This document shows positions 7,469 to 18,975 of a DNA stretch of 20,025 nt, one piece after another. Source of the stretch: a virus; IMG/VR virus record IMGVR_UViG_3300025101_000261, positions 1-20,025 of that record; one strand, written 5' to 3'. Made by a program: the position numbers and the translations under genes. The first letter of the stretch is position 1, and each line of letters opens with the position of its first letter. The notes beneath the pieces are model-generated. The model was not told where the DNA came from. It worked only from the letters and a program-made list of their open reading frames with translations, and made no database searches.

Positions 7469-7503
7469 ACAAAATAAATTTAAATCTATTATATATTAAT
7501 ATG
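7469..7503 (+). promoter_or_regulatory. Two-block start-site motif, copy 1 (possible leaderless promoter)
   Basis: ACAAAATAAA begins at 7469 and TTATATATTAATATG ends on the start codon of the protease gene. The same two blocks occur at exactly the same spacing before 8855 and 11621. If the A of ATG is +1, the blocks lie at about -32 and -12 to -3, which is promoter-like geometry. Confidence 0.5.
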
Positions 7504-8822: not shown

Positions 8823-8857
8823 GCAAAATTAATTTTTAACACTTATATATTAATATG
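8823..8857 (+). promoter_or_regulatory. Two-block start-site motif, copy 2
   Basis: GCAAAATTAA begins at 8823 and TTATATATTAATATG ends on the scaffold start codon at 8855-8857. The last 15 bases are identical to copy 1 and the block spacing is the same. It fills almost the whole gap after the small Cys-rich gene. Confidence 0.5.
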
Positions 8858-10419: not shown

Positions 10420-10448
10420 AGGGTGGGCAAAACTGCCTACCCTTTTTT
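10420..10448 (+). terminator. Rho-independent terminator after the capsid gene
   Basis: GGGTGGGCA (10421-10429), loop AAAC, TGCCTACCC (10434-10442), then six T. The 9-bp stem has a single G-T wobble. It closes the head unit and separates it from the gene at 10466, which must rely on read-through or an unseen promoter. Confidence 0.85.
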
Positions 10449-10465: not shown

Positions 10466-11005
10466 ATGGCTTGTGCAATAACAAAAGGTCGAGGGGTTGG
10501 ATGTAAGACCGCCTTTGCTGGAATTAAAAATATTTACATCTTAGATTATAGTGCTGCGATTGCTGCTTTAGGCGATAGCAGTGGTACTATAACACTACCA
10601 ACGGACAACTCTGCTGAGTTCTTTAAGTTTGAAGTAAAGGGCGGTTTAAGTTCTTTAGAAACTGCTGTAACATCAAGCAGAGAAAACGGTACTACTTTTT
10701 ACGAAAGTACTTTAAATGTTACTTTCCAAAACTTAGACGTAGCGACACAAGAAGAAATTAAACTCTTAAATAGAGGTCGTGCGCATTACGTTGTAGAATT
10801 GTACCCAGATGGTGCTGGGAACACTAAGCGTTTGTTAGTGGGTAGAGATAATGGCGCAGAAATCACTGGGGGAACAATTGTTTCTGGGGCTGCCCCAGGG
10901 GACTTGCAAGGCTTCACTTTAACTGCGGTTGCAACAGAGGTTTTTCCTCCGTTCTTCTGTACTGAGCCAGACGTAAGTGCTGTAACACCAATAAGTCCAG
11001 CATAG
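10466..11005 (+). CDS. Probable major tail tube protein
   Basis: The product has 179 residues, beta-rich, without membrane segments. Features: N-terminal MACAITKGRGVGCKTAFAGI, a central EFFKFEVKGGLSSLETAV followed by TTFYESTLNVTFQNLD, then RGRAHYVVELY and VGRDNGAEITGGTIVSG, ending in a strand before an acidic tail. Alternating strands with a long beta-hairpin region and a 'GRDNG-A-x-x-T-G-G' segment fit tail-tube proteins of flavobacterial siphophages as I know them. Its place right after the major capsid gene, between two strong terminators, suits an abundant structural protein. The assignment is pattern-based. A head decoration protein is the alternative. Confidence 0.5.
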   Translation: MACAITKGRGVGCKTAFAGIKNIYILDYSAAIAALGDSSGTITLPTDNSAEFFKFEVKGGLSSLETAVTSSRENGTTFYESTLNVTFQNLDVATQEEIKLLNRGRAHYVVELYPDGAGNTKRLLVGRDNGAEITGGTIVSGAAPGDLQGFTLTAVATEVFPPFFCTEPDVSAVTPISPA

Positions 11006-11027: not shown

Positions 11028-11054
11028 AGCCTTTCTTTTTGAGAGGCTTTTTTT
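11028..11054 (+). terminator. Rho-independent terminator after the tail-tube gene
   Basis: AGCCTTTC (11028-11035), loop TTTTT, GAGAGGCT (11041-11048), then a T run to 11054. The 8-bp stem has one G-T wobble. It isolates the next gene from upstream late transcription. Confidence 0.8.
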
Positions 11055-11093
11055 ATGCCCAACAGATAAGAAATAAAAAAAATTAAAAAAAAC

Positions 11094-11114
11094 TTGTTTA
11101 TAATTTGTTTATAA
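11094..11114 (+). repeat. Tandem TTGTTTATAA repeats overlapping the moron promoter
   Basis: TTGTTTATAA occurs at 11094-11103 and again at 11105-11114, 11 nt start to start, about one helical turn. The second copy overlaps the TTTG of the -33 element. The arrangement could bind a regulator, though AT-rich DNA makes short repeats less surprising. Confidence 0.5.
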
Positions 11115-11136
11115 CAATAAATGTTTTGTATATTTG
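11104..11136 (+). promoter_or_regulatory. Bacteroidota-type promoter for the moron gene
   Basis: TTTG at 11104-11107 and TATATTTG at 11129-11136 match the Bacteroidota -33 (TTTG) and -7 (TAnnTTTG) elements with a 21-nt spacer. Expected transcription start is near 11143, about 15 nt before the ATG at 11158. This would be read by the host's primary sigma factor. Confidence 0.7.
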
Positions 11137-11157
11137 TAATGTAAAACAAAAAAAATT

Positions 11158-11529
11158 ATGACAACCTTAGAAAAAATAAACAAATTAGTAGAAAGCGGTA
11201 AGGTCTACGAATATTCAAACAGATGTTGGTTTACTTGCTATATGACTTATTCTAAACTAACTAAAAAAGAAAAAAGCGAGGTTGTAATGGTTGAGGGCAA
11301 GGCTAACGGTTATCTACATTATTGGCTGCAAGTTAATGGTGTAACAGTAGACCCCCACTACAAGCTTATAGAGGACGACTTACAAGTAGAAGAAGAATAT
11401 ACTTACGAGCCTAAAAAATTAATAGACCTATCCTCTTTGAAAGTGAATAAAGACAACTACGAAGAAAAACCCGCTTATAATTGGTTAGGTCGTGAGAAGT
11501 GGTCTAAGGTTTACGACTTGTCTTTATAA
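11158..11529 (+). CDS. Moron gene; unknown protein with possible Cys-His-Asp triad
   Basis: The product has 123 residues and no signal peptide or membrane segment. I do not recognise a named family. The residues NRCWFTCYMTY (Cys23, Cys27), then GYLHYWLQVNG (His54) and VTVDPHYKL (Asp65) follow the order and spacing of papain-like or transglutaminase-like folds: a Cys at a helix start, a His-x-Trp strand, and an Asp-Pro after 'x-N-G-x'. I infer a possible cysteine hydrolase or a degenerate relative. The gene has its own host-type promoter and is enclosed by terminators at 11028-11054 and 11558-11586, so it can be expressed apart from the late genes. That is the hallmark of a moron. Roles such as superinfection exclusion or host modification are possible but not shown. 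Confidence 0.7.
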   Translation: MTTLEKINKLVESGKVYEYSNRCWFTCYMTYSKLTKKEKSEVVMVEGKANGYLHYWLQVNGVTVDPHYKLIEDDLQVEEEYTYEPKKLIDLSSLKVNKDNYEEKPAYNWLGREKWSKVYDLSL

Positions 11530-11557
11530 AAAGATAAGTATAAAAACAAATACAAAC

Positions 11558-11586
11558 ATCCTTACAGAAATGTAGGGATTTTTTTT
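11558..11586 (+). terminator. Rho-independent terminator closing the moron cassette
   Basis: ATCCTTACA (11558-11566), GAAA tetraloop, TGTAGGGAT (11571-11579), then a T run to 11586. The 9-bp stem has one G-T wobble. It stops moron transcripts just before the start-site motif of the next late unit. Confidence 0.85.
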
Positions 11587-11588
11587 AC

Positions 11589-11623
11589 GCAAAATAAAAT
11601 AGTTTTGTTTATATATTAGTATG
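11589..11623 (+). promoter_or_regulatory. Two-block start-site motif, copy 3
   Basis: GCAAAATAAA begins at 11589 and TTATATATTAGTATG ends on the start codon at 11621-11623. It differs from copies 1 and 2 by one base in the last 15 and has the same spacing. Because a terminator lies just upstream, a promoter is needed here, which supports reading the motif as one. Confidence 0.55.
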
Positions 11624-11971
11624 AAGATTATAGGAACTAATGGCGATAAAACTTTTAAGGTTATACCACGCCAATTTGTAAGCGGTGCAATTACTATAAA
11701 CCTAACAAGTGAAAGTACTGGCGCAACTATAAATAAAACACCTACCGCTTCAACAGATGGCAATTATATGTCATTTGTAGCAGCTTTCGGTACATTAACT
11801 GAGGGCGATTTTTATATGCTTGAGGTAAAGAATGGTGCTGCTGTAATTTACAAAGACAAAGTTTTTTGCACAGATCAAACTATAAACCAAGCTAACAACG
11901 ATTACTATTCTGTAAATAGTGGCGAATACACCACAGAGAATAGCTTTGATAACGATTATATTATTTTATGA
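11621..11971 (+). CDS. Small structural-type protein of unknown function
   Basis: The 116-residue product is beta-rich: MKIIGTNGDKTFKVIPRQF, then an Ig- or jelly-roll-like series of strands, then VFCTDQTINQANNDYYSVN and a C-terminal NDYIIL. The pattern 'F-C-T-D-Q ... Y-S-V-N ... D-N-D-Y-I-I' is one I associate with small proteins next to portals in flavobacterial phages. The last 4 nt overlap the portal start (ATGA), so the two are probably translated together. A head-surface or neck function is likely from position, but I cannot name a family. Confidence 0.6.
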   Translation: MKIIGTNGDKTFKVIPRQFVSGAITINLTSESTGATINKTPTASTDGNYMSFVAAFGTLTEGDFYMLEVKNGAAVIYKDKVFCTDQTINQANNDYYSVNSGEYTTENSFDNDYIIL

Positions 11972-18846: not shown

Positions 18847-18925
18847 TACCTTTGCTTAATATTCTATGTTTTTGTTTTATGGCTAACCAGCCCAATTGAG
18901 CCACTCTGTAAAGGGTGGTTTTTTT
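18847..18925 (+). ncRNA. Possible short RNA: -7 element to terminator
   Basis: TACCTTTG at 18847-18854 matches TAnnTTTG, and a terminator ends at 18925. A transcript from near 18861 would be about 65 nt and contain GGCTAACCAGCC, which can form a short hairpin. No clear -33 TTTG is present, so this is only a candidate. Confidence 0.2.
18899..18925 (+). terminator. Rho-independent terminator after the NinG-like gene
   Basis: CCACTC (18901-18906), loop TGTAAA, GGGTGG (18913-18918), then seven T. The stem has one T-G wobble and can extend by AG-TT. It separates the NinG unit from the next promoter. Confidence 0.75.
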
Positions 18926-18944
18926 GTTGCTTAAGTGTTTACAT

Positions 18945-18975
18945 TTTGTTTATTAAATTTTTTTTTGTAGCTTTG
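18945..18975 (+). promoter_or_regulatory. Bacteroidota-type promoter for the downstream operon
   Basis: TTTG at 18945-18948 and TAGCTTTG at 18968-18975 match the -33 and -7 elements with a 19-nt spacer. The start would be near 18982, about 15 nt before the ATG at 18997, the same layout as the moron promoter. Confidence 0.7.

Follow-up and report, generated by a model that had tools for sequence, protein, structure and literature searches.

A single-gene cassette with its own predicted promoter and terminators between the tail-tube-like and portal genes of an uncultivated tailed virus

The cassette and its transcription signals

The window, by which we mean the whole stretch of DNA analysed, is a 20-kb contig of an uncultivated virus that carries tailed-phage structural genes. 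Its interval 11093–11586 holds a single open reading frame (ORF), at 11158–11529, for a protein of 123 aa. Upstream of it are the genes for the major capsid protein (MCP) and then for a tail-tube-like protein (phrog_19091, annotated as of unknown function), and downstream are a small conserved ORF and then the portal gene. An earlier note on this DNA had described the gene as an insulated cassette located between the tail tube and the portal unit, and the location holds, with phrog_19091 on the tube side. The features of the locus are as follows.

10466–11005, + strand: phrog_19091 protein to the left of the site, tail-tube-like by position; used to anchor the comparison of sites
11028–11055, + strand: predicted terminator A, stem at 11028–11048 and then a T run; would end the upstream MCP/tube transcript
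11055–11157, + strand: leader beginning ATGCYCAACAGATAAGAAAT, which includes the promoter; near-constant before different cargo ORFs in the close clade
11104–11136, + strand: predicted promoter TTTG-N21-TATATTTG of Bacteroidota sigma-A type, by sequence match to the consensus
11158–11529, + strand: cargo gene, 123 aa; predicted compact Cys-His protein
11224–11226, 11317–11319, 11350–11352 and 11356–11358, + strand: codons of the putative catalytic residues C23, H54, D65 and H67, respectively
11558–11587, + strand: predicted terminator B, the cassette terminator, stem at 11558–11579 plus a T run
11588–11623, + strand: right junction, ending in CGCAAAATAAAATAGTTTTGTTTATATATTAGTATG; conserved at empty and occupied sites
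11621–11971, + strand: small conserved ORF to the right of the site, overlapping the portal gene; likewise used to anchor the comparison of sites

The flavobacterial sigma-A consensus has a TAnnTTTG -7 box (PMC9723704). In the cassette, TTTG (11104–11107) is followed after 21 nt by TATATTTG (11129–11136), exactly as the earlier note had it, the TATATTTG box beginning 29 nt upstream of the ATG. The + strand of the window has two copies of the full motif (at 11104 and 18945) and the - strand none, with 0.36 occurrences per strand expected by chance from dinucleotide shuffles; 1.7 per cent of shuffles of the cassette's 152-b gap contain it. The match to the consensus, together with its conservation in relatives, argues that the gene has a promoter of its own, as expected of a moron. 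The second occurrence lies within 18898–18975, where a terminator is followed by the window's only other full sigma-A-type promoter (TTTG-N-TAGCTTTG, at 18945), which precedes an early-type gene where the presumed early genes begin.

Both of the enclosing terminators claimed for the cassette were found, terminator A (-15.1 kcal/mol, z -4.4) lying just outside the interval 11093–11586 that had been given for it; terminator B is a hairpin of -10.8 kcal/mol (z -4.8). By count, terminator-like sites are at background level in the window (13 found vs 11.7 expected), and we judge terminators A and B to be above chance because they are conserved at the same positions in relatives. Specifically, the terminator A element is also seen at the short-gap sites of relatives, and the terminator B stem varies among cargos yet remains mostly complementary. 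Two stable hairpins with T runs that are conserved in this manner point to a gene with terminators of its own, a second property of morons. A further strong terminator-like hairpin (-21.4 kcal/mol, z -6.7), located at 10421–10444 between the MCP and tube genes, may reduce tube expression relative to MCP.

The right junction contains TAGTTTTG (11600–11607) and the late-start motif TATATATTAGTATG (11610–11623), and is possibly the restart point of the portal unit. The motif TATATATTARTATG is found exactly three times on the + strand (7490–7503, 8844–8857, and 11610–11623), each copy ending in the start codon of a structural gene, and TTCGTTAWTATAGTATG or close variants of it are found at gp01, gp05, and gp08 of the cultured phage P12024L. 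This motif may be a late promoter close to the beginning of the gene, or it may serve as a signal for translation. Neither an Rfam family nor a tRNA was detected in the window.

Turnover at the tube-to-portal gap

Relatives of the window were gathered via both neighbouring genes and via DNA patterns, and the gap between the tube gene and the portal unit was extracted from each. We obtained 109 distinct gap sequences, of which 95 are short and 14 are occupied; the set was enriched for occupied sites by the leader and flank pattern searches, and 14 of 109 is not a frequency. The short gaps, among them one irregular case (L111) with its junction inside the tube gene, are mostly 85–141 b long, and a terminator is present in those inspected. 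The occupied gaps hold ten unrelated ORFs of 43–123 aa (stop codons checked), which bears out the suspicion that the gene sits at an insertion spot. The 123-aa gene itself is absent at the site from most relatives, whereas the earlier note had named conservation in all relatives as the finding that would speak against its reading; this absence hints that the cargo may be dispensable for phage growth.

On the tube-protein tree, occupancy of the site changes about eight times (gains or losses), and it differs within two pairs of loci whose tube proteins are identical. In the loci nearest to the window by tube protein, the cargo is the 123-aa gene, a 45-aa gene or a 51-aa gene. These comparisons show that close relatives have the gene, lack it or carry another one at this spot, in the manner of a moron. 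Within the close clade, the leader, which extends from the stop codon of the tube gene to the start codon of the cargo, has a median identity of 84 per cent before different ORFs, whereas the cargo ORFs behind it have 22 per cent identity and are alike only as copies of the same gene. The 123-aa gene has 91 per cent protein identity with its homologues at two other loci, L004 and L005, and the DNA similarity between the window and these loci begins approximately 16–58 b before the ATG and ends just past the stop codon. Because the leader is constant, the ORFs are variable, and the similarity to L004 and L005 is limited to the gene, the ORF appears to have been swapped behind a resident leader at this site. 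In a second clade, the sequence is T7-ATGCCCTACA-ATACAAAATAAA in short gaps but T7-ATGCCCAACAG...terminator-T-ATACAAAATAAA where the site is occupied, which places the insertion point directly after terminator A.

The gap of one locus (L069; 690 b) contains two tandem promoter–ORF–terminator units, each with its own terminator, the two terminators being near-identical; cassettes can therefore stack. In approximately 35 of the 95 short gaps, a TATATTTG box occurs soon after the tube stop and is followed by about 60 nt that end in a terminator; such gaps (for example, L137, L147, L112, and L130) have no TTTG at -33. In one class of short gaps, comprising about 14 loci, the 5' segment CCTATGTCTGTTTTGGTTGACGACATAAA, with a TATGTC/GACATA stem, is conserved; these loci may encode a small RNA here.

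The nearest cultured relatives of the virus are the flavophages P12024L and P12024S (Inhavirus, Nonlabens phages), which share homologues of the protease, MCP, tube, and portal. Their site, like the cassette, is occupied by a small ORF (gp04) with a TATATTTG box and a terminator, the hairpin of which lies between the two genes; unlike the cassette gene, gp04 is on the - strand and encodes an unrelated protein. In P12024L, an antisense small gene with a TATATTTG box also follows the portal (gp07; NC_018272.1, 5123–5365), and by these features we read it as a second cargo site in the cultured relatives.

The gene family in other phages

Homologues of the 123-aa gene are found in other genomic settings. 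Three lie in DNA-metabolism regions, where they are located between AAA-type/sigma-like and exonuclease genes (L005), adjoin NinG (L012) or lie near a metallophosphoesterase gene (L008). Two others (L004 and L011) are beside terminase, and one (L013) is antisense inside a related structural operon, between the scaffold and protease units, with a promoter and a terminator. A TAnnTTTG box is situated 26–49 nt upstream of the start codon in 9 of 11 gene copies; the L004 copy has no recognisable box.

The ratio dN/dS is 0.06–0.09 between the window copy and those of L004 and L005, about 0.19 between the window copy and that of L012, and 0.34 between those of L011 and L013. These ratios indicate that the family is mostly under strong purifying selection, with weaker constraint between distant members.

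In bacterial genomes, we detected no homologue of the 123-aa protein in a genome collection of 84,980 species, and a search of 395 Bacteroidia genomes gave no match to the family at E <= 0.001; distant relatives could be missed by both searches. A weak Bacteroidia match (E = 0.0046) proved to be an unrelated fragment of a 546-aa ORF without the Cys motif. Searches of phage records with DNA, and with the proteins of two family members, likewise gave no match.

A putative Cys-His protein

Across 37–91 per cent identity, the invariant residues of the family include N21, R22, C23, W24, T26, C27, L34, E46, G47, H54, Y55, W56, L57, H67, and Y68. Asp65 is replaced by Glu in L013, and the third residue of a putative catalytic centre around C23 and H54 is therefore unsure. 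AlphaFold2 models the window protein as compact (mean pLDDT 94) and gives a pLDDT of 84 for a divergent family member. In the model of the window protein, C23 is at the N-terminus of a helix, which is followed by a strand meander that carries H54. A Cys at a helix N-terminus and then a strand meander with a His is the order characteristic of papain/transglutaminase-like proteins. The secondary-structure order of both models fits the fold of this superfamily, which has been reviewed (PMC10318531).

The closest likeness is to Transglut_core3 (PF13471, peptidase family C96, McjB-type), with which the cargo protein shares, in the same order and with nearly the same spacing, an invariant Cys, Leu+11, Gly+23/24, and His-x-Trp; unlike Transglut_core3, it has an extra C-terminal beta structure of approximately 40–50 residues. 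In eleven Bacteroidia Transglut_core3 domains, the Cys, Leu+11, Gly+23, and HxW are invariant. The corresponding Cys-L-G-HxW pattern matches all eight family members, none of 982 other ORFs, and 18 of 200,000 shuffles, a result that is supportive only, as the gap ranges of the pattern were partly chosen after seeing both alignments. A PF13471-type profile ranks family members 1, 2, 4, 5, 7, and 8 among 990 ORFs. Direct comparisons with Transglut_core3 are below significance, both in hhalign (E = 0.71, in the correct register and from few sequences, Neff 2.2) and in hmmsearch (best E = 0.063), and the window protein does not reach the Pfam gathering cut-off of PF13471. The general Transglut_core profile (PF01841) gave no enrichment of the cargo family.

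Other searches with the window protein yielded nothing over cut-off in Pfam, PHROGs, NCBIfam or PADLOC, no tie to any known family of defence or counter-defence proteins, and only chance matches among PDB sequences. Foldseek found no significant match for the two models in the PDB and BFVD, and no solved structure matched the PF13471-type profile significantly. With moderate confidence, we adopt as a working hypothesis that the protein is a Cys-His protein of the papain/transglutaminase-like kind, as its conserved residues and predicted fold suggest.

Interpretation of the locus

We read the gene as an exchangeable accessory (moron) gene and not a virion gene, because the site turns over, the gene has signals of its own, and its family is found elsewhere in early regions, near terminase or in antisense orientation. 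The explanation that we consider fairly probable goes further: the gene would encode an early Cys-His protein that acts on a host target, in counter-defence or host takeover. As read from the sequence, terminator A would end the upstream unit and the leader, with its host sigma-A-type promoter, would start the cargo; terminator B would end the cargo transcript, and the conserved junction would lead into the portal unit. Since this gap is already a boundary between two transcripts, a promoter–gene–terminator unit could be gained or lost here, or its ORF swapped, with no disturbance to the genes on either side. The cargo would be transcribed by host RNA polymerase as soon as infection begins and would not depend on late control. 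The product, a compact papain/transglutaminase-like protein with Cys23, His54, and either Asp65 or His67 as the third residue, would modify or cleave a host protein, most likely in counter-defence or host takeover. An early host-directed protein is suggested because the host-type promoter, the early regions occupied elsewhere, the mobility, and the strong selection all fit it. An example of what such enzymes can do is HvyA, a bacterial transglutaminase-like protease with control over capsulation and over sensitivity to phage in Caulobacter (PMC4241560).

An anti-phage or host-altering role, as the earlier note had proposed, is plausible in general terms, and counter-defence or takeover is our first choice within it. 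Exclusion of other phages comes second and is a distinctly less probable explanation, in which the product does not overcome host defence but protects the infected cell against a second phage (superinfection exclusion). Morons often confer phage resistance (PMC7067206), and the patchy, swapping distribution among close relatives fits competition between phages; in a virulent phage, however, exclusion acts only within one infection cycle, and no evidence here separates the types of target.

A moron for lysogenic conversion, expressed from the prophage of a temperate phage, is improbable, even though prophage morons typically show a host-type promoter apart from the lytic genes and an antisense placement like that in L013 and P12024 (PMC7067206). 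A phage integrase was found in all 14 control genomes and in none of 22 relatives of 18–32 kb, which are incomplete contigs and address the integrase route only. The genome collection of 84,980 species contains almost no relatives of the phage, with MCP found in only 2 MAG contigs, and the 395 Bacteroidia genomes contain no family member at the threshold given above. Within the scope of these incomplete contigs, nothing points to a temperate phage. The absence of integrase, the near absence of copies in bacterial genomes, and the relationship to P12024L and P12024S lead us to regard this marine Bacteroidota phage as probably virulent. The proposed expression 'in lysogeny or early infection' is accordingly best kept in its second half: lysogeny finds no favour in these data, and early expression fits better with a family found among DNA-metabolism genes and a predicted sigma-A promoter of its own. 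Separately, the chromosome record of a MAG that bears the name Woesearchaeota (CP070803.1) includes an MCP relative (49 per cent), perhaps from a misassembled or co-binned Bacteroidota phage.

We find it very improbable that the site is a neutral spacer, which gathers junk ORFs by illegitimate recombination and has no selected function. Several cargo ORFs are just 43–72 aa long and have no known relatives, as such a spacer would predict, but the 123-aa cargo has dN/dS of 0.06–0.19 against L004, L005, and L012, retains invariant residues across 37 per cent identity, and has kept its promoter and terminator. That the gene is a late morphogenesis gene merely having its own promoter, as its position between virion genes in the same orientation might suggest, is hardly credible and appears already contradicted by its absence from the site in most relatives, its replacement there by unrelated ORFs, and its homologues in early regions and in antisense in other phages.

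Relationship to known systems and significance

As in phage morons, such as those of SPP1 and of prophage accessory loci, the cassette adds one gene, with a promoter and a terminator of its own, to a place between virion genes, and relatives may have it or lack it. It differs from typical morons in showing no sign of a temperate lifestyle, and its site differs from theirs in the exchange of many unrelated ORFs behind a single conserved leader. Morons of a lytic phage are known from SPP1, including a late-region segment bracketed by transcription signals (PMC6316719). A conserved promoter before unrelated small accessory genes is also shared with the early anti-defence regulons of archaeal viruses, SIRV2 and its relatives, in which a conserved strong promoter region precedes unrelated small anti-defence genes (PMC11065993). 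Unlike those regulons, the cassette belongs to a bacterial phage and consists of one gene at one site instead of a terminal cluster, and its anti-defence role is putative.

We put forward more tentatively that the site is a one-gene cargo bay belonging to an early counter-defence regulon, and that its 123-aa cargo founds a new minimal family of Cys-His effectors. If so, virulent marine flavophages would combine a constant leader with a host-type promoter and a replaceable small ORF, and the leader sequence could be used to harvest more counter-defence genes.

To our knowledge, hardly any accessory gene of marine Bacteroidota phages has a known function. A fixed site that can be recognised by its leader makes this accessory dark matter a countable list, in which any ORF behind the leader is a candidate host-directed gene. 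The locus also suggests how a structural operon can take cargo without polarity, by insertion at an existing transcript boundary.
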